Of a DNA stretch of 64,000 nucleotides, positions 775 to 27,309 are shown piece by piece. Each line of letters starts with the position of its first letter. Position 1 is the first letter of the stretch. Source of the stretch: a methanogenic archaeon ISO4-H5 (lineage in GTDB: Archaea > Thermoplasmatota > Thermoplasmata > Methanomassiliicoccales > Methanomethylophilaceae); contig CP014214.1 in NCBI GenBank assembly GCA_001560915.1, forward strand, positions 558,001-622,000, given 5' to 3'. The position numbers were made by a program, and so were the translations under genes. Under the pieces are notes generated by a model that was not told the origin of the DNA, ran no database searches, and was given only the letters and a program-made list of their open reading frames with translations.

Positions 775-3700
775 ATGTATGACGTGATTTTATTCGAGGG
801 TGCGGATTTTGACATCAATTATAATTATGTCAAACTACAGGAGACAATAGGTGCCCTAAAAATAACCTCAATCGTATCCTATTCGGATTTGCCTCACATC
901 TATGGATATCGTACGATAAGTGTCGAAGAGATGAACACTCAAGAGTATGATTACATTATTGTTCTAGATGAAGAAAATTACCGGTACATAGCGAAAGATT
1001 TAGAAGAATTGTATAATATCGATCGTTCAAAAATACTCTCTATATTACCATTTAAAATACCAAATTTTGATTTTAGGACATATGTAGAGTTAGTTAATAG
1101 CAATCTCACTATATTAACCGATGAATGTACTGCTGCACTAATCTATCATCAAATGGGCCTTCAATTTTTATCACCTACAATATTACTAAAACAGTCAAAA
1201 AACGATTATCTAAAATTTGTATCAAACTTAGAATATTATCTGTCTAAACAGTTAATTGAGATACCATCCGAACACGGTTATCCCGTTGGAAAATTGGGTG
1301 ATATTACTCTAGAATTTATTCACTATCACTCATTTGAAGATGCAACGGAAAAATGGTATGATAGGGTAAAAAGAGTCAATTGGGAAAATATCTTGATTCT
1401 AATGACATGTAATTCTGAAGAGTCGCTGGAGGGTTTCATTAAATTACCGTTTGATAACAAAATAGCTTTTTCAAACATTCCATCGAACGATTCTCATGTG
1501 ATATATATTGATGAATATATGTTGGATTATTGGTATTATACATTGAAATATCCAACAGTAGATTTTCATATCCTGATTCGCTCGCTAGCTTCTTTGAAAG
1601 AAAATAATCACTATTACAATTTATTGGAGTTGCTTACTAAACATTCAGCATTTGAACATAATACAAATCTCCAAAACAATAGGTATTGCCAAAGGAAAAT
1701 TGTGTTTTCGCATAATCATCCAGAACGCTTAGCGTATGATGCACTAGTCAAAAAAGATTCTACTGTGTTAAAACGTGTAATAAAAGCGTTATTGAAGAAG
1801 AATTTGTCGGATCCAATCAATGAAATGCTAAAAATAGATTCAAATACCATGCTGATGACAATACAAGAATTAGTAGATGATGGAGATTGTTTGGCATGTA
1901 TTGCATTAGCTCGGATGTATCGGGATGGTCGTGGTGTAGATCAAAATGTTGATCTTGCAATCGATTATTATAGAAAGGCTGTACAAAAGGGTGTATTGTG
2001 GGCAGGCATTGAATTATCAGACATTCTTTGGAATTTGAATGCACCAGAATCAGATAAAGAGATAATTGCCCTTCTTACGCCATTAGCAGAGAACGGAGAT
2101 GGGGAAGCAGCGGGCAGACTCGCACGCATGTATCGGGATGGTCGTGGTGTCAAGAGAGATTATGATCATGCCATAAAGTTATTCAGAAATGCTGTAGAAT
2201 CAGTATTATGGGCTCGCATTGGGCTTACCGATATCCTGTGGCACAAAAATAAACCAGAGCTGGATAAGGAAATAATTGAACTTCTCACGCCTCTTGTAAA
2301 GAATGGTAACGGTGGAGCGTATGCCCGTATTGCACGCATGTATCGGGATGGTCGTGGTGTAGATCAAAATGTTGATCTTGCAATCGATTATTATAGAAAG
2401 GCTGTACAAAAGGGTGTATTGTGGGCAGGCATTGAATTATCAGACATTCTTTGGAATATGAATGCACCAGAATCAGATAAAGAGATAATTGCCCTTCTTA
2501 CGCCATTAGCAGAGAACGGAGATGGGGAAGCAGCGGGCAGACTCGCACGCATGTATCGGGATGGTCGTGGTGTCAAGAGAGATTATGATCATGCCATAAA
2601 GTTATTCAGAAATGCTGTAGAATCAGTATTATGGGCTCGCATTGGGCTTACCGATATCCTGTGGCACAAAAATAAACCAGAGCTGGATAAGGAAATAATT
2701 GAACTTCTCACGCCTCTTGTAAAGAATGGTAACGGTGGAGCGTATGCCCGTATTGCACGCATGTATCGGGATGGTCGTGGTGTAGATCAAAATGTTGATC
2801 TTGCAATCGATTATTATAGAAAGGCTGTACAAAAGGGTGTATTGTGGGCGAATGAAGAACTATCGAAACTTTTGATAAGTAAGTTTACAAAAAACGATTT
2901 AAACATTTATTCTACTTTGAAAAAAATTGATTTCTCTGATTATAAAAGACAATCCATGGAGTGCCTAGATGGATTAGAAAAAGCAATACACTCCGGTAAA
3001 ACGGTTTCATTATCCTTAAACCAGGTGTATGAGTTGTTTAAATCTTCAAAAGAGTTCATCTCTAAAAATTTGAAAATGGGCAATATATACTTGGCTGGTA
3101 AGATTTCTGCACAGCTCGATAACAATTCTAACCTTCAAATTGTATGCATTATAAAAGAAGAGATGATATGGGCATCTGATAATTACCTTGTCTCGTATTC
3201 ACAAGGGCTCCAATCCATTTTTGTGACTGTCAATTCGATATTCGTATGTCACAATGATATCATGTATACTGCACCTAAGAACAATGGGATGTTTGCAATA
3301 TGTATTGATAGAGCTGGAAAAATAATAGATGCTGCCGAGAATGTCAAAGCACACAGAAGCAACGAAGATGATCTAAAAGAAATAATAACTGATAATCCCA
3401 AGCTTTCTGGTGCATACAGATATCTGTTAGAAAACTATCGCGACTATAAAGAAAACTCATTAATATTAGATTATAGAATTGGAGACAGAGACATAAATAA
3501 GTTTTTTGTAAATAATAATACAATTAGTAACAGGGAGTACAATTTTATTGTAAACACAAGTGGTTCACTAGCCATATATTTATTTTCATTAATGTACTCG
3601 ATTAGTCAACACTGTTCAAGACCATCAACAGTATGGGTGTTACAATCTGACTACAAAAAACAAGATTTACAAGAGTTGCAGAAATTTGGAAAGAAACTTG

Positions 3701-4653
3701 GGATTAATGTAAACGTTATCCAAGTGAAAGAAGCTGATTATCAAATATTCTATAGTGGTGCATATTCCAAAGCTATGTACTATTACTTGATGGCTCATAA
3801 ATTATTGCCTACGACTGTAGAACGGGCATTACATATTGATGTTGATACTTTAATAATGAAAGATATTGGTCAACTATACGACATAGATTTTGAAGATTGT
3901 TACATTTGTGCATGTGACCGGGGGTTATCTTATAAAAACACCGTGACAAATCCTGATGACTATATGTTTTTCAATGCAGGAATTGTATTAATGAATTTAG
4001 TAAAATTCAGAGAAACAAACATTACTATCAATGATTATAAAAATGAAGTTACCGAGAAGAATTACTCTATCAAAGATGTGGATCAGTCACTATTGGCCCA
4101 CATGTTCTGGAAACAGTCTAAAATGCTTCCACGCCAGTACTATAATGTATATCCCCCGCAACAATCTACTTACTTAATGAATTATATTAAGGGAGGAGTA
4201 TTGCCAGAATCTTACTCATATCCGCTCAAAATATCGAACATGAACACAATTATTCATTATGCAGGGAAGGAAAAACCCTGGTTAATGCCATATGTCATTT
4301 TTGTTGATGGAACAGAAGTTTACGCTAAAACCCCTGATACGAATATCGATTATTGCACATTACAATGGTGGAGAATAGTACCTAATTTGCCTGAACCGAT
4401 TAAGCAATTATTATTTTCCTCAGAAAAAACTACTGGATCTGTATTAAATCTACAAGAATTTGAAAAAGAGATAGTGGATAAAAAGGCTAAATACTATACC
4501 TGGATGCATCTCTATTTCATAAGGAAAAAAATAAATGATAATGACCTTACAGGAGCATATACTATTTTGGATAATATACCAAATTGTGTCGAGAAAAAGT
4601 CCATAACTAAAATACTTAAATATGTTGAGTTAGGTGGTCATATTGATGCATAA
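775..4653 (+). CDS. DUF1919 - Sel1 repeats - GT8 glycosyltransferase fusion protein
   Basis: 1292 residues in at least three parts. Residues about 75-240 match DUF1919, a family found in polysaccharide loci (CTAALIYHQMGLQFLSPT, YPVGKLGDITLEFIHYHS, KRVNWENILILM). Residues about 355-700 are Sel1 repeats. Residues about 930-1230 form a family 8 glycosyltransferase with the metal-binding DxD motif HIDVDTL near residue 1020 and the downstream MFFNAGIVLMNL signature. No signal peptide or membrane segment is visible, so it probably acts in the cytoplasm on nucleotide-sugar donors; the Sel1 middle may be a scaffold. The Sel1 part contains a 423-bp DNA duplication. The next gene overlaps its end, suggesting an operon with LicD and GT8. 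The domain fusion is my reading; substrate unknown. Confidence 0.8.
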   Translation: MYDVILFEGADFDINYNYVKLQETIGALKITSIVSYSDLPHIYGYRTISVEEMNTQEYDYIIVLDEENYRYIAKDLEELYNIDRSKILSILPFKIPNFDFRTYVELVNSNLTILTDECTAALIYHQMGLQFLSPTILLKQSKNDYLKFVSNLEYYLSKQLIEIPSEHGYPVGKLGDITLEFIHYHSFEDATEKWYDRVKRVNWENILILMTCNSEESLEGFIKLPFDNKIAFSNIPSNDSHVIYIDEYMLDYWYYTLKYPTVDFHILIRSLASLKENNHYYNLLELLTKHSAFEHNTNLQNNRYCQRKIVFSHNHPERLAYDALVKKDSTVLKRVIKALLKKNLSDPINEMLKIDSNTMLMTIQELVDDGDCLACIALARMYRDGRGVDQNVDLAIDYYRKAVQKGVLWAGIELSDILWNLNAPESDKEIIALLTPLAENGDGEAAGRLARMYRDGRGVKRDYDHAIKLFRNAVESVLWARIGLTDILWHKNKPELDKEIIELLTPLVKNGNGGAYARIARMYRDGRGVDQNVDLAIDYYRKAVQKGVLWAGIELSDILWNMNAPESDKEIIALLTPLAENGDGEAAGRLARMYRDGRGVKRDYDHAIKLFRNAVESVLWARIGLTDILWHKNKPELDKEIIELLTPLVKNGNGGAYARIARMYRDGRGVDQNVDLAIDYYRKAVQKGVLWANEELSKLLISKFTKNDLNIYSTLKKIDFSDYKRQSMECLDGLEKAIHSGKTVSLSLNQVYELFKSSKEFISKNLKMGNIYLAGKISAQLDNNSNLQIVCIIKEEMIWASDNYLVSYSQGLQSIFVTVNSIFVCHNDIMYTAPKNNGMFAICIDRAGKIIDAAENVKAHRSNEDDLKEIITDNPKLSGAYRYLLENYRDYKENSLILDYRIGDRDINKFFVNNNTISNREYNFIVNTSGSLAIYLFSLMYSISQHCSRPSTVWVLQSDYKKQDLQELQKFGKKLGINVNVIQVKEADYQIFYSGAYSKAMYYYLMAHKLLPTTVERALHIDVDTLIMKDIGQLYDIDFEDCYICACDRGLSYKNTVTNPDDYMFFNAGIVLMNLVKFRETNITINDYKNEVTEKNYSIKDVDQSLLAHMFWKQSKMLPRQYYNVYPPQQSTYLMNYIKGGVLPESYSYPLKISNMNTIIHYAGKEKPWLMPYVIFVDGTEVYAKTPDTNIDYCTLQWWRIVPNLPEPIKQLLFSSEKTTGSVLNLQEFEKEIVDKKAKYYTWMHLYFIRKKINDNDLTGAYTILDNIPNCVEKKSITKILKYVELGGHIDA
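1915..2849 (+). repeat. 423-bp in-frame tandem repeat (2.2 copies)
   Basis: The start of the unit recurs at 1915, 2338 and 2761, an exact 423-bp (141-codon) spacing. Copies are almost base-identical; one difference changes TTG to ATG near 2036/2459. Each unit holds Sel1 modules, and the heptad MYRDGRG occurs twice per unit. The third copy stops at about 2849, where the protein continues with unrelated sequence. Such identity within one gene implies recent duplication or gene conversion. Confidence 0.9.
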
Positions 4654-6925: not shown

Positions 6926-6997
6926 ATACCTGAATTCATGCCTGATGTGCCGAATTCACGACGAACAAATATCACCACTAGGCAAAGGTAAGATAGA

Positions 6998-8014
6998 ATG
7001 ATGTTTAAAACGGAATCCCTCAACAGAATGGCCAGGGAGATCGGCGGTCTCGAATCCGATCTCACCGCAGCTCTGGACATTCCTAGTGGTATCACAAAGT
7101 CATACAAGCACATCATGATCTGCGGAATGGGAGCGTCCGCCATCGGCGGAGCCCTCTACGTGGACTCCATGTACTACACCTCCAAGGTCAGCGTAGAGGT
7201 CGTCAAGACCATGAACCTGCCTGCCTGGGTCGACAACGATACCCTCTTCGTGGCATGCAGCTACTCCGGCAACACCTACGAGACCGTCCAGATGTACAAG
7301 GAGGCCATCACCAAAGGCATCGATGTCGTAGCCGTCACCCACGGCGGACAGCTCGAGGAGCTTTCTCGGCAGAACGGCAACCTCATGATGAAGATCGGAG
7401 GCGAGCTCATCCAGCCCCGTTCCGCCATCGGATGGTTCATCGGTCTCCTGGGAGGAATCATTCAGGACGCCGGCGGACCCTAGGTCAGGGAGCAGCTCAG
7501 GAAACTCCTGCCCCGCATCCGCGAGTACAACTACGAGTTCACCGCCGACGACAGTTACGCCAGGACCATTGCCCTCCGCATCAAAGGCAAGATCCCTGTG
7601 ATTTACGGAGCACCCAACCTCTCCGCCATGGCGCTGAGGATGAAGACCCAGCTCAACGAAAACTCCAAGGTAATTGCATTTTCCGGAGTGCTTCCCGAGT
7701 TCAACCACAACGAGATTGTCGGATGGTACGACGATGACCACAAGTACCAGTTCCACCCCGTCCTCATCGTCGACGATGACTACGAGGAAATCGCCAAAAT
7801 CATCAAGGCTACCAAGGGACTCCTCTCGAGCCGCGATGTCGGTCTCGATGTCTTCAAGGTCAAGGGCGATTCCGTCCTCGAGAAGAACATCTACGCGGTC
7901 ATGTTCGGAGACTACGTCTCCCTGTACCTCGCGGCCCTTCGCGAAGTGGACCCCTGCAACGTCGACCCTATTGTCGATATCAAAGCACGTATCAGAGCGG
8001 TGCTGCCGGAATGA
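6998..8014 (+). CDS. Bifunctional phosphoglucose/phosphomannose isomerase with an in-frame TAG
   Basis: 338 codons including TAG at 7481-7483 (codon 162). Both sides are one SIS-domain isomerase in one frame: HIMICGMGASAIGGAL and FVACSYSGNTYET before the TAG, and KGKIPVIYGAPNLSAMA, LPEFNHNEIVGW and the C-terminal sugar-binding half after it. The combined length fits the archaeal PGI/PMI family, which interconverts fructose-6-phosphate with glucose- and mannose-6-phosphate. The TAG follows IIQDAGGP and is followed by VREQLRKLL, with no frameshift. Either UAG is decoded (pyrrolysine) or this is a nonsense mutation. Base composition matches the core genome, unlike the AT-rich operon before it. 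Its 3' end is duplicated at 12230 and 18638, which makes it the likely insertion site of the island. Confidence 0.8.
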
Positions 8015-9029: not shown

Positions 9030-9578
9030 TCATTCCACAGGTTGTTTATCTAAAGTTTCTTCGTAATAGGATTCGAGACACTTCACAAAGGTATCTACAA
9101 AAGCAACAGCATGTTTGTGAAGATCGATTATTTCCTCATAGGTTTTTGACATATTGTAATCTGCAATATTTCCATGAGTAATGCGATTACGTTCACTTCC
9201 GATACTCATAAATGCTTCAGCATTTTTCTTAGAATTTTCATCTTTCAATTGTTTTTCCATATATTTTTTGAAATCTTTCCCCCAAAGCCCAAAAAAATGA
9301 TTGGCATTCGAATCGTTCCAGTTGAAGTAAGTATGGTATTGACGTTCTATAGCTTTATTCTGAACAAAAGTAACAGCCATTTCCGAATGAGTAGTTTCCC
9401 TGAAGAAATCGATTAATGTTGAACATATTTCGTGTTCATACATACTTGCACAGGCTAAAACTAACAGTTTATTGTACTCCGTATTGATTTCCATATTAAG
9501 TCCCATTTCATCTATGGGAAGTTTTTGGTTGAGTTCTTCTCGAATGCGTATGAGTCTATCTATTGGTTCAGTATTCAT
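9030..9578 (-). CDS. HEPN-domain protein, partner of DUF262
   Basis: 182 residues, mostly helical. The HEPN RNase signature Rx4-6H appears as ERNRITHG at about residue 130. The rest (YNKLLVLACASMYEHEICSTL, then ANHFFGLWG) resembles the HEPN class described beside DUF262 proteins (MAE_28990-type). Its start codon overlaps the stop of the DUF262 gene in ATGA, so the two are translationally coupled. HEPN proteins are typically RNA-cutting toxins or effectors; with a DUF262 partner this fits a defence pair. Subfamily assignment is tentative. Confidence 0.7.
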   Translation of the reverse strand: MNTEPIDRLIRIREELNQKLPIDEMGLNMEINTEYNKLLVLACASMYEHEICSTLIDFFRETTHSEMAVTFVQNKAIERQYHTYFNWNDSNANHFFGLWGKDFKKYMEKQLKDENSKKNAEAFMSIGSERNRITHGNIADYNMSKTYEEIIDLHKHAVAFVDTFVKCLESYYEETLDKQPVE

Positions 9579-10735
9579 TTTAACACTCTTTCAGCACATG
9601 CAATTCTTTTCAGAACATTTGCCCGTGAAGCAATTCCCGAGGTAGTGGCTTCGATGTATTCCGTATCCATTTTTAAGTCCAACAATTGATTATTTGTTAG
9701 GTAACTCGTATAGGATTCTTTCCGTTTACATAAAGACACAAAAACCGATTCAAATAATGAAATACTGAATTTACTATTGGCACTTCTAAAAGAATCCTTG
9801 TCCAAATCGGAACATCTATCTAAAAACCAACTGAATAAGTTCATTAGTGTAGTGTAATGATCTACTGTATAGGTCTTTGTTTTCTTTGAATACGCGATAA
9901 GAAATGCATTCATTGGTGACGTGTACGAATCTGATAATTCATACATCGCTAACGAACGAAGTATAATTTCTATATCTTTGAAATGAACGTCCGGCGTTTC
10001 TGAACCAACGAGTTTTCTCCACCTAGGATCGAGGTTCATTTCAAGAATGTGCTCGTACAGGGGAGTATAAGCAAGACACATCCTAATCTCTTGCGGTTTT
10101 AAGTTATAGCCCCCAGTGTTGAGCCTATTGAATATTTCAAACATTGAACTTTCATCATTCGGGGAGTTCTGTTTTATCATTATACAACGAATTGTTCTTA
10201 GAAACATGAATGTGTGTTTCTTTTCACCCAGTGTTTCAATTGTCAGTTTGTTTAAGGAGTTTTTTTGTCCTTCTTCGAGAAGAGGCAAGGACAATTTGAA
10301 ATCTGTAAAATATTCATCGTTCTCCATCAAATTATTGAGTGTTTCGTTTTTTCCAATAACGAGTTCTCTAATTTTTTGCCTTCCGAGTGGTGTGGGAAAC
10401 CTTTGTTTGACAAAGAAATAAATCGAAAGTAAGCGTTGCTGGCCATCTATTACTAAAAATTGGTTTTTGTCCTTTTCATATAAAAATATTTGAGGTATGG
10501 GTAATCCAATTATTATTGATTCTATAAGCTTGGATGCACGCATTTTATCCCAGACATAATTCCTCTGGAAAACTGGTATTTGTACTACGTTTTCATCAAT
10601 TAAATTGCATATTGTGGATATGTTAAAATCGTTCGGGGACGATGTGATATCGTAACTCTTTAAACCAATATCTTCTTCTGTTTCTTTTTGAGAATCATCA
10701 TCGAATTCTAAATTGTGCTCGTCTTTTGTAACCAT
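9575..10735 (-). CDS. DUF262 (GmrSD-like) protein
   Basis: 386 residues. The DUF262 core is plain: VVQIPVFQRNYVWDKMRASK, IIGLPIPQIFLYEK and the hallmark FLVIDGQQRLLSIYFF near residue 100. This ParB/Srx-like fold is the nucleotide-hydrolysing half of GmrS/GmrD type IV restriction enzymes and of several stand-alone defence genes. The C-terminal half lacks the DUF1524 HNH nuclease, so nuclease activity may come from the coupled HEPN protein downstream (4-base overlap). AT-rich compared with pgi, as expected of acquired DNA. Role in phage defence is inferred. Confidence 0.8.
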   Translation of the reverse strand: MVTKDEHNLEFDDDSQKETEEDIGLKSYDITSSPNDFNISTICNLIDENVVQIPVFQRNYVWDKMRASKLIESIIIGLPIPQIFLYEKDKNQFLVIDGQQRLLSIYFFVKQRFPTPLGRQKIRELVIGKNETLNNLMENDEYFTDFKLSLPLLEEGQKNSLNKLTIETLGEKKHTFMFLRTIRCIMIKQNSPNDESSMFEIFNRLNTGGYNLKPQEIRMCLAYTPLYEHILEMNLDPRWRKLVGSETPDVHFKDIEIILRSLAMYELSDSYTSPMNAFLIAYSKKTKTYTVDHYTTLMNLFSWFLDRCSDLDKDSFRSANSKFSISLFESVFVSLCKRKESYTSYLTNNQLLDLKMDTEYIEATTSGIASRANVLKRIACAERVLK

Positions 10736-12129: not shown

Positions 12130-12229
12130 ATAATCGTATTGGGGACCTCGACTTACTCGACTCCTTTGAAGGTAACCCGAATCTAGTTTAATACTGCCAC
12201 AGGGGGGGGTTTCATGTTCAAGAGTCTAT

Positions 12230-12550
12230 CCCGAGTTCAACCACAACGAGATTGTCGGATGGTACGATGACGACCACAAGTACCAGTTCCACCCCGTCCT
12301 CATCGTAGACGACGACTACGAGGAGATCGCCAAGATCATCAAGGCTACCAAGGGACTCCTCTCGAGCCGCGACGTCGGACTCAATGTCTTCAAGGTCAAG
12401 GGCGATTCCGTCCTCGAGAAGAACATCTACGCTGTCATGTTCGGAGACTACGTCTCCCTGTATCTCGCGGTCCTCCGCGAGGTGGACCCCTGCAACGTCG
12501 ACCCCATCGTGGATATCAAGGCACGTATCAGAGCAGTACTGCCGGAATGA
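12230..12550 (+). pseudogene. Displaced 3' end of pgi (copy B)
   Basis: 321 bp aligned without gaps to 7694-8014 of pgi, with about 20 mismatches (about 94% identity). About 18 of these are silent, and the reading frame is open to the same TGA. No start codon or 5' part of the gene is present. The silent-site bias shows this sequence diverged while it was still part of a working pgi, so it is either the original 3' end displaced by an inserted element or one carried in by it. Confidence 0.85.
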
Positions 12551-12699: not shown

Positions 12700-13794
12700 A
12701 TGGTATTCGACAACTGCATGTCATTTCATATTGTACCGTTTGGCGATTGTGATTTGTCTGACACATTTTTTGATTCATTAAGGGCGGACTACCCCGGTTT
12801 TAATCAATGGTTCCAAACGAAATCAAATGCTGGATATAAAGCATATATAGATTGTGATGAAAACGGCAAATTGCATGTATTTGTTGCGTTGAAACAAGAC
12901 CCAGAGTTTGAAGAATTGGGAGTGGATCCAGTATTGCCCCCCGTTCCGCGTTTAAAAATTAGTACTATTAAGATTGACGAATCTTTCAGCGGGCAGAGAT
13001 TGGGTGAAGGAGCGATGGGTATTGCGTTATGGACTTGGGCAAGATCGAAAGAACGCCAAATATACGTAACAACTTTCAAAAAACAAAAGTCTCTAATCCA
13101 ACTATTGGAAAAATTTGGTTTCAAAAACGTTACACGCTTAGTTAATGGAGAATTAGTTTATCTGAGGGATAAAGAAGATGTAGATTATAGCGACCCTCGG
13201 AAATCTTTCCCTTACATAAATCCCAGATTCCCTAAGGCAAAATATTTGCCAATCAAAGATATCTTCCACGATTCGATGTTTCAATATTCGGATTTGAAGG
13301 GAGTAATCAAACAAGAGTATTCCCTCCCGGTTTCAAATGGAATTACAAAGATATATATTGCCGCACCAATCACAAAGTTGAGTTATTCAGAGGGTGATCT
13401 CGTATTTATTTACAGAATGTATACTGGAGATGGACCTAAAAAATACAAGTCTGCAGTAACATCCTATTGTACTGTTGGTAAGGTTATACCAATTGTACAT
13501 AACAAGGAGATTATTGTTCCTTTTGAAAAATACAGAGATATGGTGGGTAACAAATCTGTTTATCCAGACGAATTGATTGAGGATATATTCAACAGAGAGA
13601 AAAATGTCTTTTTGATTGAATTAATATACAACGGTTATTTTGGAACCGGAAATAACATCAATTTAGATACATTAAGAAAAAACGGTCTTTGGAACGATAA
13701 CATACATCCATATGATTCTTTGTTATCGAGAGAACAAGTTCAAAAAATATTCACATTAGGGAATTGTGATGTCCAAAATATTAATATCAATTAA
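12700..13794 (+). CDS. GNAT-like acetyltransferase fused to a PUA/ASCH-like domain
   Basis: 364 residues. Residues about 85-150 look like a GNAT core: KISTIKIDESFSGQRLGEG supplies the strand and acetyl-CoA loop, followed by QIYVTTFKKQKSLIQLLEKF and GFKNV, the typical C-terminal strand-helix. Residues about 210-350 (YIAAPITKLSYSEGDLVFIY) resemble a PUA/ASCH/EVE-like nucleic-acid-binding domain. The following ASCH gene overlaps its end by 29 bases, so the two are probably co-expressed. GNAT-ASCH combinations occur in toxin-antitoxin and RNA-modification settings; which applies here is unknown. AT-rich, island-type composition. An ATG at 12718 (MSFHIVPFG) is an equally good start. Confidence 0.6.
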   Translation: MVFDNCMSFHIVPFGDCDLSDTFFDSLRADYPGFNQWFQTKSNAGYKAYIDCDENGKLHVFVALKQDPEFEELGVDPVLPPVPRLKISTIKIDESFSGQRLGEGAMGIALWTWARSKERQIYVTTFKKQKSLIQLLEKFGFKNVTRLVNGELVYLRDKEDVDYSDPRKSFPYINPRFPKAKYLPIKDIFHDSMFQYSDLKGVIKQEYSLPVSNGITKIYIAAPITKLSYSEGDLVFIYRMYTGDGPKKYKSAVTSYCTVGKVIPIVHNKEIIVPFEKYRDMVGNKSVYPDELIEDIFNREKNVFLIELIYNGYFGTGNNINLDTLRKNGLWNDNIHPYDSLLSREQVQKIFTLGNCDVQNININ

Positions 13795-14140
13795 TCCGGA
13801 ATACGTTGAAAAAATACTTAACGGATCCAAAAGATATGAGTTTCGTAAAATCGCTTGTAAATTTCCCGTAGATGAAATGATTATCTATTGTACAAGCCCT
13901 GTTATGAAGGTAATAGGAACGGCATCTGTGAAACGTACCCTATGTGGAATTCCTGAGGATATATGGAGATTAACAAAAGAGTATGCTGGAGTATCTAAGA
14001 GGTTTTTTGATCAATATTTTTACGGCAAGAGTAAAGCTATTGCCTATGAGATAACCGCAGTAAAACAATTTGATACACCAAGAGATTTATCCTACTACGG
14101 CATAGGGGTCGCACCGCAGTCTTTCGTTTATGTTTACTGA
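13766..14140 (+). CDS. ASCH-domain protein
   Basis: 124 residues. The ASCH signature is at the N terminus: ILISINPEYVEKILNGSKRY followed by EFRK. ASCH is a PUA-like beta-barrel that binds RNA or modified nucleotides. It overlaps the GNAT/ASCH-like gene by 29 bases and converges on a third ASCH-type gene, with which it shares 7 bases. Likely part of one RNA-directed module; the target is unknown. Confidence 0.8.
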   Translation: MMSKILISINPEYVEKILNGSKRYEFRKIACKFPVDEMIIYCTSPVMKVIGTASVKRTLCGIPEDIWRLTKEYAGVSKRFFDQYFYGKSKAIAYEITAVKQFDTPRDLSYYGIGVAPQSFVYVY

Positions 14141-15122: not shown

Positions 15123-15437
15123 GGCAATGTCTGGGAGTATATGGAGTAGTATAAGAATCTGCATGGGACCAGCAATATCTGCTATTATGAGATTGGTGAG
15201 AGTTATATCAAGGTAGCTTTCCAGAGGAAGGATACAAGCCTTCGTTTTGACTGTTATCTTTACGAAGAATCCTGCATAACCCCCGAGGTGCTTGATTTGT
15301 TGAAAGGAGCCGCGGTGAATGGATACAATCTTGGTCATTTTGTAAACACTTGCGCCAAGAAAAGGTATTCTGATAAGATCCTGCACAAATCCCTGGATGA
15401 ACTCAACTCCTTTAGTGGGAGACCCGTTCTGCGCTAA
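15123..15437 (+). pseudogene. KTSC-like fragment, possibly with an in-frame TAG
   Basis: In one frame the bases read GNVWEYME, TAG (15147-15149), then YKNLHGTSNICYYEIGESYI and on through CITPEVLDLLKGAAVNGYNL to a TAA at 15435. The second half resembles the short KTSC domain (extended strands, then a helix ending before a conserved aromatic). Only about 95 codons exist after the TAG and the upstream side runs into transposase debris, so this may be a truncated gene. The TAG could be a decoded amber, a stop of something else, or decay. Weak call. Confidence 0.35.
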
Positions 15438-15523
15438 TAACTGTGGAAATTCTTCAACGATGATCGAAACCAGAGTTTTAAACGCCGGTAAACTTGATAT
15501 ATACTTGTTTATATAGCTTGATT

Positions 15524-15573
15524 GCAAAATTATACAACAAGTGTAGGTTGGTTCATTTGTTGTATAATTTCGC
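15524..15573. promoter_or_regulatory. 17-bp inverted repeat upstream of the CBASS genes
   Basis: GCAAAATTATACAACAA (15524-15540) and its complement with one mismatch (15557-15573) surround a 16-base spacer. It lies about 110 bp before the first CD-NTase. It may be an operator, an mRNA hairpin or a transposon end. AT-rich sequence follows up to the gene, with an SD-like GGGAG at 15674-15678. Confidence 0.5.
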
Positions 15574-15683
15574 TTGTATATTTTGTAGTTCAATTGATGT
15601 CACGTCGTTATTTGTTAACAATGGTTAATAATTAACATTTTATGTGAATATCTTTTGAACCAATCATCAAGTTGGGAGCACTC

Positions 15684-16466
15684 ATGGCGATTCCTTTAGA
15701 AGTATTACAAAAATGGGCTAAACCTGGAAAGAACGAGATGTCCAAACAAACGTATCATGCATTACGGGATGTCTTGATCAGTAAATTGGGGTTACCCCAA
15801 TCAAGCATATATCTCCAGGGATCTTATGCCAATTCCACCAACGTCAGGGACAACAGCGACATAGACATCGTAGTAGAGTTCCCTCCGGAATACGATGTAA
15901 GATCTCTGAAGAATTATGTCTACAACCGTATACAGAATGCGAATAATTTCCAGTTCTCCTTGGGTTCCAAGACTGTCAAGTATAAGGGATACCGGAACCA
16001 ATACGTCCCTGCGGACATCGTTCCCTGTGTAACCGTTGCCAATAAACAGGATTGTGTGAAGATCTACGATTCCTCCCGCAGTACAGTCATCGAGAATCAT
16101 CCGAAAGTTCATATCAGGAACGGTGAGAACAAAAGCGGAAGGACCAGCGGTAATTCCAAGAAAGCGGTCAGGATGCTTAAGAACGCCCGGAACTATTTGG
16201 AAGACAAAGGGTACAAGATCGGGATTTCCTCATACACCATTGAATGTATGGTATACAATATTCCTGATGGTGAATTCGTAGGCAATGAATACGATGTATG
16301 TTATCACATCTTGAACTGGCTGTGTAATAACAAAATATCTCTTTCATCTATGAAAACCCAGGATGGAAAAGACCTCCTCTTTTACACGGGGGACCGTTCT
16401 ACCAATACTGCCTCTTTATTCATAAACGACCTTGTCAATCTATGGAACAATTGGGGCAAATTTTGA
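15684..16466 (+). CDS. CD-NTase (cGAS/DncV-like nucleotidyltransferase) 1
   Basis: 260 residues. The nucleotidyltransferase active site is intact: SIYLQGSYANSTNV with GS at 46-47, then DNSDIDIVVEF with both metal aspartates (59 and 61), and a third acidic residue in VPADIVPCV (111). This is the signature of the CD-NTase family, which makes cyclic di- or trinucleotides on phage infection. ATG 15684 is chosen for the SD-like GGGAG about 6 bases before it. It overlaps a paralogous second CD-NTase, which is followed by a Cap15 effector, so this is a CBASS operon. The product nucleotide cannot be told from sequence. Confidence 0.85.
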   Translation: MAIPLEVLQKWAKPGKNEMSKQTYHALRDVLISKLGLPQSSIYLQGSYANSTNVRDNSDIDIVVEFPPEYDVRSLKNYVYNRIQNANNFQFSLGSKTVKYKGYRNQYVPADIVPCVTVANKQDCVKIYDSSRSTVIENHPKVHIRNGENKSGRTSGNSKKAVRMLKNARNYLEDKGYKIGISSYTIECMVYNIPDGEFVGNEYDVCYHILNWLCNNKISLSSMKTQDGKDLLFYTGDRSTNTASLFINDLVNLWNNWGKF

Positions 16467-17269
16467 TGATTTCAGACGGGCAGCTCATCGAATGGTCACA
16501 ATCAGGAAAGAGTGAGTCCGAGCCCAACGCATACAACCGTTTCAAAGATGTGATCCGGGCATGTTTCGACGTCGAAGACATATTCCTGCAGGGTTCGTAC
16601 GCCAACTCCACGGAGGTGTTCAGCAGCAGCGACATAGATATCGTCGTTGTGTGCAGGGGCCCGGAATACGGTTCGTATGGCTGGGAATCCCGCCTCAAGC
16701 GTCTGAAATACCATCTTTACAACTCGATAGAGAACTATCATAATTTCCGCTTCGAGATGGGGAAGAAGACCATAAAGTACAGTGGCTCATCAAAATATGC
16801 CCCTACTGATATCCTTCCGTGCATCAGTTTTACCAACAGAAACGGGGATCAGGGGATAGTATTCTACGATCACAGGAACCATAGATTGGTATTCAACTAT
16901 CCCAAACAGCACAAGGCTAATGGGATTGCCAAGAACGAACGGACTGGCGGGGATTTTAAACGGATTGTACGTGTCTTCAAGAATCTCCGTGATTCGCTGA
17001 TTGAGGACGGACTTATTCGCTATAACCTGGCCCCATCATACTTTCTTGAATGTTTGCTATACAACGTGCCTGACTACTGCTACACATCATACATCACAGA
17101 CAGTTTCATTAATATCATTAGTTGGCTCCAGAAGAACAAAGCACTCCTTCCGCAAATGAAATGCCAAAACGGTATCCAATCGCTGTTCAACGGATACAGC
17201 GGCTGGGATCTCGGCAACTGTTATATGTTTCTTGATGCGATTGAGAATGAGGTACGTTACGATGCATAA
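16466..17269 (+). CDS. CD-NTase (cGAS/DncV-like nucleotidyltransferase) 2
   Basis: 267 residues, clearly paralogous to the gene before it (shared LQGSYANST, SDIDIVV, and P-x-DI-x-PC-x motifs). GS at 43-44, Asp 56 and 58, and Asp 115 in APTDILPCI are intact, so it should be active. ATG 16466 aligns with the paralog's N terminus and overlaps its TGA by one base; an ATG at 16442 in the same frame would add 8 residues. Two intact CD-NTases in tandem feeding one Cap15 gene is unusual. They may form a heteromer, make different products, or respond to different triggers. Confidence 0.85.
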   Translation: MISDGQLIEWSQSGKSESEPNAYNRFKDVIRACFDVEDIFLQGSYANSTEVFSSSDIDIVVVCRGPEYGSYGWESRLKRLKYHLYNSIENYHNFRFEMGKKTIKYSGSSKYAPTDILPCISFTNRNGDQGIVFYDHRNHRLVFNYPKQHKANGIAKNERTGGDFKRIVRVFKNLRDSLIEDGLIRYNLAPSYFLECLLYNVPDYCYTSYITDSFINIISWLQKNKALLPQMKCQNGIQSLFNGYSGWDLGNCYMFLDAIENEVRYDA

Positions 17270-17837
17270 GTATAGCTGCGATAACGACAGAAGGGATTAC
17301 GTTTCCGCGGTCACGATGTTGATATGCATAATTGTATCGTACCTGATATCCGACGCTATCGCAGCCTATGTCGCAAATAATGATTTCTTTGTGAAAATAC
17401 TCATTTTTATAGTTATTGTGGGTCCGTTTACGCTATGGACATATCTTGCAGACGGCCTTTCGGCATTATTTCTGAAGGCCTCTGGGATAAGGAATTGCAC
17501 CGGGGAATATACAGGCACTCTGAAATCTAGCTATGATTCCTTTGAAAGGAACTATAATGTAACGGTAAAAATCGTTCATAAATTCAGGAATATCGAGATC
17601 AGGCTCGACACAAGTACCAGCACATCACGCAGTGTTACCGCATCTCTCCGTCAGGACGGTGAGCGGGTCGAATTAATCTACACTTACGAAAATGATGGTT
17701 CCATAGAGATGGGCCTCAATAGGCACATAGGTACGGGGATTATAACCATTGAAAGCTAGATGGTTAAGGGCATCTACTACACTCATCCTGACCGCGGAAC
17801 TTCGGGAACGTTCGAGTTAAAATTCAAGCCAAATTAA
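17262..17837 (+). CDS. cap15: Cap15-type CBASS effector with an in-frame TAG
   Basis: 191 codons including TAG at 17757-17759 (codon 166). Two membrane helices (about 15-38 and 43-62) are followed by a beta-barrel: GEYTGTLKSSYDSF, then VKIVHKFRNIEIRLDTSTST and VELIYTYENDG, with HIGTGIITIES leading to the TAG. The frame stays open after the TAG for 25 codons (MVKGIYYTHPDRGTSGTFEL, then KFKPN) to TAA 17837. This tail has the G-x-Y-Y-T...R-x-T-x-G-x-x-x-L pattern expected of the last strands of Cap15 barrels. Cap15 senses a cyclic nucleotide and disrupts the inner membrane. ATG 17262 is chosen over in-frame upstream starts because GAGGT lies 8 bases before it; it overlaps the CD-NTase stop. Termination at TAG would remove the final strands. 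Confidence 0.82.
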
Positions 17838-17950: not shown

Positions 17951-18496
17951 ATGACCGTTCGCAAATCCTTCGATAGTTACGTAAGCATAGACCTGGAATT
18001 CAGCGGCTATTGGGATTCCAAGGAGACACCGCTGAATGAAAGGAAATGCTCCATCATCGAGATCGGTGCGGTCAGGTTCATCGATGGAGACTAGACCACC
18101 TTATCGACCGATGTACGGCTGCTTCCAGGCCGGCGTTTTCAGGAATGGATTATACAGAATCATCATAAGGATCCTGCGAGGTATGAGAACGCAACGTATC
18201 CGAAGGATGCCCTGACGGAACTGTTCGATTTCGTGGGGAATCTCCCCATCCTTGGACAGGACTTCGTTAACAACGACCTTTTCATGATAAATGACCATTT
18301 GGAAGCTCTAGGTATGGACAAATGGGAACCGGCAGATATTCAGGATCTTCTGGATTGGTCGGGTCGTAAAGGCCTGGAAAAGGTGGCAAAAGAACTTGGA
18401 TTGGATTATGGGGATAGACACGATGCCCTCGAGGATGCCTGCATTACTCAACAGGCATATGAGATTTACAAAAAGAGATGTGATTCTTCCATCTAA
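17951..18496 (+). CDS. DnaQ-like (DEDD) 3'-5' exonuclease with an in-frame TAG
   Basis: 181 codons including TAG at 18092-18094 (codon 48). Exo I is before the TAG (YVSIDLEFSG, with the D-x-E pair, then SIIEIGAVRFIDGD). After it come TTLSTDVRLLPGRRFQEW, an Exo II-like segment (LGQDFVNNDLFMINDH) and Exo III (DRHDALEDACITQQAYE). All three motifs are needed for catalysis and are split by the TAG, with no frameshift between. The TAG falls in the strand-turn-strand after Exo I, a tolerant position. It is 113 bp downstream of cap15 and may be a CBASS-associated or independent nuclease gene. Exo II is unusual, having Q where H is common. Confidence 0.78.
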
Positions 18497-18637
18497 GTTG
18501 AAAAGCGGTCTGCGATAAATAAACTTCCAAGACCATCAAGACGAATAAAGGACTTCTGATTAGCCGCGTTTTAAGATTGGATGATTTCAACGCTAAGGCG
18601 ACTTAGTCACGCTCTATCATGTGGCATGCGTGATGCG

Positions 18638-18703
18638 GACTCCTGCAACGTCGGTCCCATCATTGACATCAACGCACGTATCAGAGCAGTGCTTCCCGAA
18701 TGA
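18638..18703 (+). pseudogene. Decayed 3' end of pgi (copy C)
   Basis: 66 bp ending in TGA match the last 66 bp of pgi with about 11 mismatches. Weaker similarity continues upstream to about 18600, where one base is lost and the frame broken. It is more diverged than copy B, consistent with an older insertion event at the same site. It lies 102 bp before the IS element. Confidence 0.7.
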
Positions 18704-18805: not shown

Positions 18806-20661
18806 TCAATGATTTCCTGAAATCATGTACTTTTGCCTGACCTCGCTGCAGCTAGTTCAGCGGCCGTACGTCTTTTCCTCGGTCTGGTGTCCTTGGACCC
18901 TGGCGGGCGTCCGCGTCTGCGCGGACCCTCCTGCGGGATGATGTTCTTCACTCCGTACCTCTCCACCATGTCCGGTTCGGTGACAGCTCCTACTCTCACA
19001 TAGAGCTTCATATCCTTTCCTGCGGTGGTGCGGTATTCCCACTCGCCATCCCCTTCCCTTATCTTCACACAGTCGCAAAGGTCCGAAAGAACATCCTTGA
19101 ACGATCTGTTCCTGCAGAAATCGAATTTTGCAAGGTGATTCCTCAGCCTTGCGGACATCAGCGTTGCCAGATAGTTGACGAACTCGCTCCCTATCGTCGT
19201 CTCATCGGATTTCTCCCTGGTGTCGTCGATCTCCAATCCCGTCTTGTGCAGTTTGAACAGAGGTTCGATTCCCCATCTGTCATCGTAACAGTCGTATGCG
19301 AAATCCGGTTCCATCTTCTGATCCGATTGCAATATGAGAACTCCGAACCATCTCCGTTCTGCTTCGAGCAGAACGGGATCCAGATTCCCTGCGTTCTGTT
19401 CAAGATACTCGCTTTCCATCTCTGCCGCTATCTTCGGACTTTTGAAAGAATACAGCCAATAGCCCAGACCCTCTCCGTTCTTGCCTTTTGCCTCGGATCT
19501 CTTGCAGCTTACCGGACCGTCATCCCTCATCATCACCGTATCGAAAGAGAAACATCCCGACCTCTCGGCCACCAGACGCCCCTTCATCAGAGGAACAAGA
19601 TAGTGGAGACCCTCATGTTCCTCCGCCACCCTTTTCATCACCTCGGGTCTGAAACCCCTGTCTGCGACCATGATCCCTTCGCGTATCTTGAGACGTTTCA
19701 CGAAATCCTCCACAGCCACTGCATCGGTGACATTCCCGGGATATACCTTGGAGCAGAGAGGTTCCCCTTCCAGAGGGCTGTATGCATACATCATCAGATG
19801 GTGGCACACCTTGGTTGCGGAAGTCTTCCTTGAGGCCTTGGATATGGAGAGATTATCACCGTTATCCTGCTTCAGACATCCGTCTATGACCACCAGATCA
19901 TCCTCGGATATCTTTCCCAAACGGGAGATCATGAACTTCTCGGTGGTCACGAACTGTTCACCCAGAAGGGTGAACATCTCCGTGACGTGATCCTTGTTCA
20001 TTGTCACACCGGGATAGAATTCGGAAACGAACGAGTGTATGTATCTCGCTCTGAGTTTGCAGTCAGGGATTCCTGGGTAGGAGGCTCTCAGCAGTGCTGT
20101 GCAGTATATCCATTCAGCATCCCTGTAGTGGTAGAACTCCTCCAGATCGGTGAGGATATTCTTGCACAGGATATTCAGGAGATTGATTGCACCGAACTGT
20201 TTCGATTCTATCCTTCCGATGGATTTCAGTTCCACTTCCTGTCTGATCGGATGGTATGAATCGGTGATGTATCCTATCACCTGGTTCTTCCTGAACCTGA
20301 TGTTCCCTTTGCCGTCGATGATATCGACCCGCGTCCTGACTGCGTATTTGCCGGATTGATACGGTTCTACGACTGTACGTGCAGGTCTTTCTATCCCCCT
20401 GATCTCCTTCGGCACCCTCATATCCTTCGATTATATAATATGGTACATTAATATAAAAATATTTCTTATAATGTACTTTTGGACATATGAAAAACACCCT
20501 TTCAGGCATAAATCCCGGGAATTATAGCGAGAAAACTGCCGCCAAATGGTCAAATTGGCGAATTATAAAGTTTGGACTCGATACTAATCAGCATCAAACA
20601 GGGTGGCCAGATCAAAAAGTCTGAGCCTCGGAAAAAGTACATGATTTCAGGAAATCATTGA
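18806..20661 (-). mobile_element. Complete DDE insertion sequence with 29-bp inverted repeats
   Basis: Perfect 29-bp terminal inverted repeats are at 18806-18834 and 20633-20661 (tips TCAATGATTTCCTG / CAGGAAATCATTGA). A 4-bp direct repeat CGGA flanks the element at 18802-18805 and 20662-20665, probably the target duplication. The 1856-bp element encodes one intact transposase. Perfect ends and an intact gene suggest recent insertion. It landed just beyond the stop of the Pycsar effector gene. Confidence 0.88.
18823..20421 (-). CDS. DDE transposase with C-terminal AT-hook
   Basis: 532 residues. The DDE_Tnp_1-type core shows DDLVVIDGCLKQDNGDNLS as a candidate first aspartate, GIMVADRGFRPEVMK as the second, and a C-terminal DRWGIEPLFKLHKTGLEID for the glutamate, the usual IS4/IS1634 arrangement. 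The tail RRRGRPPGSKD is an AT-hook. The last codons lie inside the terminal inverted repeat. Intact length and clean ends suggest it is active. Exact IS family not determined. Confidence 0.85.
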   Translation of the reverse strand: MRVPKEIRGIERPARTVVEPYQSGKYAVRTRVDIIDGKGNIRFRKNQVIGYITDSYHPIRQEVELKSIGRIESKQFGAINLLNILCKNILTDLEEFYHYRDAEWIYCTALLRASYPGIPDCKLRARYIHSFVSEFYPGVTMNKDHVTEMFTLLGEQFVTTEKFMISRLGKISEDDLVVIDGCLKQDNGDNLSISKASRKTSATKVCHHLMMYAYSPLEGEPLCSKVYPGNVTDAVAVEDFVKRLKIREGIMVADRGFRPEVMKRVAEEHEGLHYLVPLMKGRLVAERSGCFSFDTVMMRDDGPVSCKRSEAKGKNGEGLGYWLYSFKSPKIAAEMESEYLEQNAGNLDPVLLEAERRWFGVLILQSDQKMEPDFAYDCYDDRWGIEPLFKLHKTGLEIDDTREKSDETTIGSEFVNYLATLMSARLRNHLAKFDFCRNRSFKDVLSDLCDCVKIREGDGEWEYRTTAGKDMKLYVRVGAVTEPDMVERYGVKNIIPQEGPRRRGRPPGSKDTRPRKRRTAAELAAARSGKST

Positions 20662-20671
20662 CGGATCGCAA

Positions 20672-21187
20672 TCAGAATACGAATGCCAGCACCGCTACGA
20701 AGATGAGTAGCACAACACCCCTGACGGACAATCTCAGACCTTCGTTATACCAATCGTACTTCTCCGTACAGATTTCCGCATTGGCACGAATCTGCTTGGT
20801 AAGCTCCCTGACATAGTTCTCATAGTTCCTGGCAGATATTCTCTCCCGATACGCATCCAGATCCATCGAGGCGATGTGTCTGTAGAATATCGTTCCCTTC
20901 ATGGATTCATCCTTCAGGGGATCATCCCTGGCGCGCAACGAATCGAATAAGGCGTGCAGTCCTTTTACCAATAATATCGCAGAGGCTACCAGCAACAAGA
21001 TCACAATCGCTGCTGCACCTATGTCCCCCGAATGGAAGACTCCCATAAACTCTGAATGACTCAGACCCAAGATCAGGGATACAGAGGTAAGAACGGTCCC
21101 CAAGACAATAGAGGCCTTGCTGTCGCAGTTGTTTATGAACCCGATGATCCTCGCAAGGTCCTTCTCCAACGTGTCGCTCAGATCCAT
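20672..21187 (-). CDS. Pycsar TM effector (PycTM-like, DUF5706)
   Basis: 171 residues. It begins with the family helix LEKDLARIIGFINNCDSKAS, followed by two membrane segments (about 25-47 and 55-77), then the amphipathic region FYRHIASMDLDAYRERI and NYENYVRELTKQIRANAEIC, and a final membrane helix (about 150-170). This matches the Pycsar effector TM family, which permeabilises the membrane on binding cCMP or cUMP. It starts 4 bases after the stop of a class III nucleotide cyclase on the same strand. The IS abuts its 3' end without touching the coding sequence. Confidence 0.83.
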   Translation of the reverse strand: MDLSDTLEKDLARIIGFINNCDSKASIVLGTVLTSVSLILGLSHSEFMGVFHSGDIGAAAIVILLLVASAILLVKGLHALFDSLRARDDPLKDESMKGTIFYRHIASMDLDAYRERISARNYENYVRELTKQIRANAEICTEKYDWYNEGLRLSVRGVVLLIFVAVLAFVF

Positions 21188-21191
21188 TTAC

Positions 21192-21923
21192 TCACTTCCT
21201 CACATTTTCCGAGATCCACTTTTCGAATTCAGCGTTGGTGATGTCGCAGTGGTATACATGGAGTCCATCGAATGTCTTCTGGGAAAAATCCTGCCCGGTC
21301 AATCCATATATCTGCAATCTCTTGGATAGTGTTCTATAAAACCTATCTGACATGACAATAGGTTTTATTCTTTCTTTGTTCCCGTATTTGGAAAGATTCG
21401 AGGCCGTGGTAACCGCCTTCCCGATCCACACCTTTGCGGATACCCCTGTTCCTTTGGCAGCAGTCTTTACAACGAGATCCTCAGCCGTCGCCAGACCTAT
21501 TCCGATCTTAATCTCGGGATAGTGTTTTGACCTGTAGTGCCTGTTGAGGAGTATCATCAATGTATTGACATTATATGCAATCTCGAAGACCTGGCAGACC
21601 TTTTCCCCGTCGGGCGTAGAGTATATTCCGTAAACGCAGTCTCCTCTTACTCCGATTTCTGCACTGTCGTCATTTTTCATTATGCGGATCGTTTCGGATA
21701 CGAAGGAACGCACTATGCGGGTGACCATATCCCGGTCCTTTTCAGCGAATAATTCAGTCGAATTACGGATATCGACGAAAATGGCGCTGATTCTCTGGGT
21801 ATATCCGTTGGACAATGTCAGCAGCTTATCCGGAGGAATTCTTTTACGGTCACGCTCGCTCATATCCTGAGTGAGGATGTTGATTATCCTTTGGGAAACT
21901 CCTTGATACGATTTTAGAGTCAC
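21192..21923 (-). CDS. Class III nucleotidyl cyclase (PycC-like)
   Basis: 243 residues. The class III cyclase domain is clear: RISAIFVDIRNSTELFAEKD has the first metal aspartate, AEIGVRGDCVYGIYS the second, and KIGIGLATAEDLVVKTAAKG with ASNLSKYG completes the domain. Paired with a PycTM-like effector 4 bases downstream, it is best read as a pyrimidine cyclase that makes cCMP or cUMP on infection. The base specificity is not readable from sequence with confidence. Start is GTG 21923. Confidence 0.83.
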   Translation of the reverse strand: MTLKSYQGVSQRIINILTQDMSERDRKRIPPDKLLTLSNGYTQRISAIFVDIRNSTELFAEKDRDMVTRIVRSFVSETIRIMKNDDSAEIGVRGDCVYGIYSTPDGEKVCQVFEIAYNVNTLMILLNRHYRSKHYPEIKIGIGLATAEDLVVKTAAKGTGVSAKVWIGKAVTTASNLSKYGNKERIKPIVMSDRFYRTLSKRLQIYGLTGQDFSQKTFDGLHVYHCDITNAEFEKWISENVRK

Positions 21924-25756: not shown

Positions 25757-27309
25757 TTTAGCACTAGATCCCATCTGTTTTGTGCCTGTACGCGAACGTC
25801 AGGCTATTCATCCCATCTTTCAGGGAAAGGGTTGCCGGTCAACCCCCATATCAAGATGTTTATCGCACTGTTGAGGTCGCGGTCCATTACCAGACCGCAT
25901 TCGGGACACACGTGTGTCCTTACCTCCAGGCCCTTCCTCACGCATGCTCCGCATCTGCAGCATACCTGGGACGTCCATTTGGGATTGACGAGGATTATCT
26001 TACGGCCAGCTTCTATCGCTTTGTCGATGAGCCTCCTCCTCAGCATCCCCAGGGATGCGTCGTCGTATGCGTTCGTCATGCGTTTTCCTCTGGATTTCCT
26101 TCTTATCTTTCCTACTTTGAGATCCTCCATGCATATGATGTCGAAAGCATCTACAATCTGACGGGAGATGGTCTCCACATTGTTCCTGCGGATCCCCCTG
26201 AGCCTCCCGTAGAGATGGATCAGACGGGACCTTGCCTTCCTATATCCGGGAGTGCCCGGAAGCATATTGCTGAATGCCTCGTGCTTCTTCCTGAAAAGGT
26301 CCAGCAGTTTCGAGTACATGTGATCGTTACCGTACACTGTGCCGTTGGACAGCGTGGCGGTCTTGGATACACCCATATCTATTCCCACGGCATCGGGGGA
26401 ATGTTCGCTTAGATACTCCTCCCCTCTGCGGCGTTCGATATCGTCCCAGCAGGAGAGACATGCATAATATTCGGTATGAGTGCCCCTGTCCACCTTCTCT
26501 ATGGTACAGGTCTTGGGCACCCCGGGGACCGGGGTCTTCTGGTTATAGCAGCGGACGGGCCCTTTTATCTTCGACACCTTCAGCGTGCGTCTGCCGTTCC
26601 TTTCGGTAAAGGCCTCCATGTGCAGGGGATTGGTGTACGAATGGAATCTGGAAGGCTTCCTGAACCTGGGACAGGCCAATCCCGTTTCCGGAGGTGTAGT
26701 GACCTCGGCATTCTCCTTATCGGCCTTTCCTTTGGACTTCCTCCTGTTCCTCCTCTCCCTCTTCCTGCGGTTCTCCTCGCATTTGGCGAATGCCTGAAGG
26801 ACACGTTTCGCGGTCTCGTTCATGGCATTCTGATAGAGGTACCTGTGAAGGAAGGGACAGTTGTGCCAGATCCTCGTACACAGCTTGTTGAGATCGAACT
26901 GGGAAGGCAGCCTGCCGTTGCTCCTGTAAAACGATTTGCAGGCGGTGATGAGGGCGTTGTATACATAACAGTGGTATCTGAACGATGCCTCAATCACCTT
27001 CCTCTGCTCCGAGTCAGGTTCGATCCTCATCTTAAGCGACCTGTACATAATGATGCGTTTCTCGATGTGTGCTTATTTGAAGCTATGGTGTACATGTAAT
27101 ACTGCAGCACCCTCTCGCTTACCCGAATTATCGCCGTCGGTATAGTGCTATATAGCACTAGGCCAAGTATCGCAGGTACGATCCTTAAGGTCTGTATTTG
27201 CCGTAAAAACCGTCTTAAAACCGTGAAAATTCATAGAAATCCTCCTGAATCGGCGAAAATCCACTCGAAAAACATCCAAAATGAGGATCAAAAACAATCT
27301 AGTGCTAAA
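25757..27309. repeat. TAGCACTAG motifs bounding the TnpB element
   Basis: TAGCACTAG occurs at 25759-25767 and 27153-27161 in direct orientation, and inverted at 27299-27307. The outer pair extends to a perfect 12-bp inverted repeat, TTTAGCACTAGA (25757-25768) and its complement (27298-27309). The 27153 copy is half of an 18-bp perfect palindrome (27143-27160). They flank tnpB and may mark the element ends or insertion target. The true left and right ends are not settled. Confidence 0.5.
25804..27048 (-). CDS. tnpB: TnpB, RNA-guided nuclease of an IS200/IS605-type element
   Basis: 414 residues. The RuvC-like site is complete: Asp 224 in VGIDMGVSKTA, Glu 308 in IICMEDLKVGKI and Asp 391 in MDRDLNSAINIL. 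A zinc ribbon (CCRCGAC...CPECG, about 363-384) sits between the last two. TnpB uses an omega-RNA made from the element's right end to cut DNA and help maintain the element. No tnpA is nearby, so this is a TnpB-only (IS1341-type) copy. The stop is TAG (25804-25806), the only apparent terminal TAG in the window; reading through would add 26 residues. metK is transcribed toward it. Confidence 0.9.
   Translation of the reverse strand: MYRSLKMRIEPDSEQRKVIEASFRYHCYVYNALITACKSFYRSNGRLPSQFDLNKLCTRIWHNCPFLHRYLYQNAMNETAKRVLQAFAKCEENRRKRERRNRRKSKGKADKENAEVTTPPETGLACPRFRKPSRFHSYTNPLHMEAFTERNGRRTLKVSKIKGPVRCYNQKTPVPGVPKTCTIEKVDRGTHTEYYACLSCWDDIERRRGEEYLSEHSPDAVGIDMGVSKTATLSNGTVYGNDHMYSKLLDLFRKKHEAFSNMLPGTPGYRKARSRLIHLYGRLRGIRRNNVETISRQIVDAFDIICMEDLKVGKIRRKSRGKRMTNAYDDASLGMLRRRLIDKAIEAGRKIILVNPKWTSQVCCRCGACVRKGLEVRTHVCPECGLVMDRDLNSAINILIWGLTGNPFPERWDE

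Follow-up and report, generated by a model that had tools for sequence, protein, structure and literature searches.

The amber-interrupted phosphoglucose isomerase gene (pgi) of the methanogenic archaeon ISO4-H5 is an accessory copy at the border of a defence and transposon island, and its UAG codon is probably read as pyrrolysine (Pyl), which would give a full-length isomerase with Pyl at position 162 and no special role for that residue. The gene occupies positions 6998–8014 (+) of the window, the 64,000-nucleotide stretch analysed here (contig CP014214.1, 558,001–622,000), and encodes a bifunctional phosphoglucose/phosphomannose isomerase (PGI/PMI) of 338 codons if the TAG is read. A genome search for another phosphoglucose isomerase, set beforehand as a refutation test, found an uninterrupted 338-residue copy with CAG at codon 162, located at C1:1885062–1886078 (L008:9062–10078, −). 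The preliminary description had taken the amber gene for an essential-type isomerase unless another exists; since an intact native copy is present, that argument falls.

The amber frame runs from ATG to TGA and contains one in-frame TAG only, codon 162 at 7481–7483 (+), so that the coordinates, the size and the position of the stop given earlier all hold on the window sequence. With the TAG read through, the protein matches SIS at residues 37–116 and bact-PGI_C at residues 185–331 (E 9e-49), scoring 25.2 bits against PF01380 (cut-off 25), 166 bits against PF10432 and 232 bits against the PGI/PMI family TIGR02128 (cut-off 214). It therefore carries SIS and bact-PGI_C in one chain, each above its cut-off, as expected of an archaeal bifunctional PGI/PMI, and the family assignment made earlier is borne out. 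Over its whole length the read-through protein aligns with the uninterrupted copy at 97% amino-acid identity, which shows one continuous frame across the TAG and not two open reading frames paired by chance; homology to the intact copy extends on both sides of the TAG, so the proposed conservation of the sequence past it stands. Over 1017 bases the two genes show 84 differences, some of them near the TAG, which makes mis-assembly of one gene unlikely. Upstream, homology to the native locus covers an A+T-rich leader (6961–6997, +) with a TATA-like AAATATC and stops 37 bases before the start of the amber gene; this leader may serve as a promoter.

The intact gene adjoins genes for a HAD phosphatase, a GHMP kinase and a sugar nucleotidyltransferase that resemble D-glycero-D-manno-heptose genes. 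About 8.5 kb around it is syntenic at 90–92% with RUG13270 (L074), and the sequence around a contig-edge pgi 3′ fragment in a metagenome-assembled genome from horse faeces (L075) is also syntenic with the intact locus. Conservation of this neighbourhood in two related genomes identifies C1:1885062–1886078 as the native housekeeping locus. With native pgi, these neighbours span L008 9062–12715 (−); they resemble genes for a D-glycero-D-manno-heptose phosphatase, a 7-phosphate kinase and a sugar nucleotidyltransferase, and the native isomerase may serve the synthesis of heptose or other nucleotide sugars, beyond only gluconeogenesis. Also near the native gene is a TnpB-like gene that is apparently split by a group II intron reverse transcriptase (L008 14289–17548; reverse transcriptase at 15327–16634, −, ending in TAG).

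The native genes of ISO4-H5 and RUG13270 are equal in length to the amber copy and share 97–98% amino-acid identity with it, but they have CAG at codon 162, sit in the conserved locus and end ATG..CAG TAA, whereas the amber copy ends ATC..GAA TGA. At the nucleotide level the three sequences are nearly equidistant (91–93%) and mosaic, such that any pair can be almost identical over some 90-nucleotide stretches. Near-equidistance and the mosaic pattern indicate that the amber copy is no fresh duplicate; it is an older paralogue or a recombined copy from a sibling lineage. Codon 161 is CCC in both RUG13270 and the amber copy, so that a single C-to-T change suffices to convert CAG into TAG at codon 162. 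A 110-nucleotide identical stretch just 5′ of the TAG was considered as a gene-conversion tract that might date the stop, and was dropped because the three sequences all differ little over this stretch and recombination has made mosaics of the copies.

Purifying selection has left a clear mark on the amber copy. Its branch carries 33 synonymous and 7 nonsynonymous changes (20 and 2, respectively, 3′ of the TAG), counts that are approximate owing to recombination. Against a neutral expectation of about three nonsynonymous changes to one synonymous, the part after the TAG departs with P of about 1e-10; an unconstrained phase there could account for no more than about 10% of the branch, leaving purifying selection for about 90% or more of it. 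These counts show a gene that was functional for most of its existence. There is also a hint that the branch is somewhat relaxed relative to the two native branches (7 nonsynonymous and 33 synonymous against 2 and 59, P = 0.03). Constraint after the TAG was not accepted as proof of present readthrough, since the stop codon could have arisen later than the constraint. A search for viral relatives of the PGI/PMI protein found none.

The site itself is among the most variable positions of the family and lies outside the conserved set. Across 31 aligned family sequences, column 162 holds at least 12 residues (Lys, Asp, Pro, Arg, Ser, Ala, Gly, Thr, Asn, Glu, His and Gln), with Lys the commonest; both the intact paralogue and RUG13270 have CAG (Gln). 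None of the close relatives examined has a TAG or another stop there, only sense codons or varied residues, and a comparison with homologues, proposed earlier as a check, shows that the UAG position is not conserved, unlike those of MtmB, MtbB and MttB. As a lysine derivative, Pyl would plausibly be harmless at a site where lysine is the commonest residue. By contrast with site 162, Glu221, His237 and Lys329 of the amber copy are at least 90% conserved, and all three lie C-terminal to the TAG. In an alignment with the solved Pyrobaculum enzyme, 1tzb, Glu221 falls at position 203 and His237 at position 219, and Lys329 is unaligned; Glu203, His219 and Lys298 are the catalytic residues of that enzyme. 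The conserved Glu, His and Lys that we take to be catalytic are accordingly present in the amber gene, and a stop after codon 161 would strip them all from the product. An AlphaFold2 model of the read-through protein, built from a four-sequence alignment for the exposure of residue 162, was too poor for use (mean pLDDT 44.9).

The host is equipped to decode UAG. PylS scores above its profile cut-off, and PylB, PylC and PylD, above their equivalog cut-offs, adjoin two MtmB genes with one in-frame TAG apiece; an MttB gene likewise has one. Upstream of pylS we read by eye a tRNA-like gene (L047:5676–5746, −) that has a CUA anticodon in the loop CTCTAAA and ends in CCA, and neither ARAGORN nor a script for the canonical cloverleaf reported a tRNA-Pyl. 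The genome therefore has pylB, pylC, pylD, pylS and the tRNA that a Pyl-containing protein requires, and the amber gene has an in-frame UAG flanked by homologous sequence. This agrees with the earlier view of the host as a pyrrolysine-decoding member of the Methanomassiliicoccales, the order being taken from the ISO4-H5 paper. No PYLIS-like structure was found 3′ of the TAG in the amber gene; such an element is not considered required (PMC4153887, PMC8211752).

Stop-codon usage was sampled over 469 kb, comprising the window and 21 further stretches with 369 predicted genes, 12 of which end in TAG. Four of these 12 run on into strongly coding sequence, among them the amber pgi and one MtmB gene. 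The other eight (2%) resemble in frequency the 1.6% of stops that are TAG in ‘Candidatus Methanomethylophilus alvus’ (PMC4153887). They include the group II intron reverse transcriptase mentioned above (L008 15327–16634) and a TnpB/IS605 OrfB gene (window 25804–27048, −), whose frame closes at TAG with no coding extension after it. Coding extension past the stop proved a weak signal of readthrough genome-wide, since 48 of 308 TGA-ending genes also run in frame into their neighbours. Some UAG readthrough is the default expectation in a Pyl-decoding host.

The reading that we consider probable joins these observations as follows. The accessory gene at the edge of the defence island would have separated from native pgi at about the time that RUG13270 did, recombined with the RUG13270 lineage and stayed functional for most of the time since. 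One C-to-T transition would have turned a Gln codon at a non-conserved site into TAG. In a cell that synthesises pyrrolysine, has a charged CUA tRNA and seldom uses TAG as a terminator, this UAG would be read as Pyl at some efficiency and a full-length Pyl162 enzyme would be made; we infer both the readthrough at codon 162 and the activity of the product. The native gene would supply isomerase regardless, making the mutation close to neutral, and the redundancy of the amber copy would explain why the TAG is tolerated.

The main rival is that the gene is a recent nonsense pseudogene in which translation halts at codon 161, leaving an N-terminal SIS half that lacks Glu221, His237 and Lys329. We regard this as rather unlikely, although several observations suit it: an intact copy makes the gene redundant, further decayed pgi pieces lie in the island, the nonsynonymous rate is somewhat raised on the amber branch, and homology to the native locus reaches no further than 37 bases 5′ of the start. 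Set against these are a frame that is otherwise perfect across 338 codons, constraint on both sides of the TAG for about 90% or more of the branch, and a host in which UAG is decoded elsewhere and seldom serves as a stop. That Pyl162 has acquired a function of its own, for instance by making isomerase activity depend on the supply of pyrrolysine when the cell grows on methylamines, would fit a TAG-bearing copy that is otherwise intact and the suggestion that Pyl supply in this order may track methylamine availability (PMC4153887). Such a function is nevertheless highly improbable, given that site 162 varies and lies outside the conserved set, that TAG occurs there in no relative examined and that an intact native copy would mask such control. 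Least probable of all is a sequencing or assembly error with CAG as the true codon: a single base separates TAG from CAG, but 454 errors are mainly homopolymer indels, which counts against a base substitution. The assembly was made from 454 reads alone, a source of doubt, but it reached 43.8x coverage and a closed genome, and the amber call was retained by the original authors (PMC5011839).

Because the amber copy is a spare, the normal gene is intact elsewhere and the UAG is already on record, the case is close to ordinary. The genome paper (Li et al. 2016, PMC5011839) describes a closed circle of 1,937,882 bp (CP014214; 454 reads, 43.8x) with a pyl operon, and names a PGI/PMI, AR505_0560, among 46 genes with an in-frame amber. 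Only one PGI/PMI frame in the genome holds a TAG, so the gene at 6998–8014 is most likely AR505_0560, with its in-frame amber reported since 2016. The passages found in the paper present the gene as gluconeogenic, and they mention neither an intact second gene, nor the defence island, nor the 3′-end repeats described below. ‘Ca. M. alvus’ (Borrel et al. 2014, PMC4153887) is like ISO4-H5 in its scattered in-frame ambers, homologues without them and a low share of TAG among its stops; its putative Pyl proteins come from other genes, and in both cases they are predictions. A neutral origin has a parallel in the tRNA-His guanylyltransferase of Methanosarcina, an enzyme reported to contain Pyl without needing it; the ISO4-H5 gene differs in having a redundant intact counterpart and in that its Pyl162 is predicted. 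Heinemann et al. reportedly attributed the Methanosarcina case to neutral evolution in 2009, with the Pyl protein shown by experiment.

In Pyl-decoding archaea an in-frame UAG should be taken neither as a null allele nor as evidence of function. The amber pgi illustrates this: the supposedly essential gene has an intact native counterpart, and it is the redundant copy that bears the amber allele, where a mutation costs almost nothing. Before pyrrolysine is claimed to have spread into housekeeping enzymes, a check for paralogues is in order. The pair of genes would also provide a clean natural experiment on UAG readthrough, since the two enzymes yield distinguishable peptides.

A better lead than the amber codon is the association of three pgi 3′-end repeats with defence genes. 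The end of the amber gene itself (7940–8014, +) is repeat 1; repeat 2 is a 3′ fragment at 12210–12550 (+; 92–93% nucleotide identity), corresponding by spacing to about codons 226–338 and containing two stops when the protein match is taken more widely; and repeat 3, at 18629–18703 (+), comprises the last 25 codons with the stop and is 83% identical to repeat 2. All three share orientation and end exactly at TGA with ..GAATGA, past which the sequences are unrelated; they have in common a terminal variant, Ile332, Glu338 and TGA, that is absent at the native locus. Between repeats 1 and 2 lie a HEPN (RiboL-PSP-HEPN) and GmrSD_N/NsnA-like defence pair (9030–10735, −) and a GT2 gene. Between repeats 2 and 3 are a candidate defence pair, PDC-M11A and PDC-M11B (12700–14140, +), and a CBASS-like unit (15672–17759, +) with two CD-NTase cyclases (15672–16466 and 16442–17269) and a Cap15/2TM effector (17232–17759). 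Beyond repeat 3 follow a DDE transposase element (18806–20661) and then a Pycsar-like unit (20672–21923, −) made up of a PycTM effector (20672–21187) and a PycC cyclase (21192–21923). The amber pgi borders this island, and the earlier statement that it extends amber readthrough beyond mobile genes does not hold up.

One possible explanation, which we advance tentatively, is that in this lineage defence cassettes insert preferentially at the 3′ end of pgi, as a hotspot: elements that each brought a pgi 3′ end with them (..GAA TGA) would have inserted serially, the amber pgi being the outermost complete junction copy and the segments at 12210–12550 and 18629–18703 displaced older 3′ ends. No integrase was found among the open reading frames scanned in the island, and for this reason we put serial insertion forward as a hypothesis.

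Three further features of the window are recorded here. The CBASS-like unit occurs in a methanogen, and its two CD-NTase cyclase genes are in tandem and overlap. Directly after this unit, a DEDDh/RNase_T exonuclease frame (17951–18496, +) contains an in-frame TAG. At the other side of the amber gene, a Sel1/GT8 gene (775–4653) harbours near-identical alternating repeats (1909–2849), 98–99% identical and spaced about 423 bases apart.
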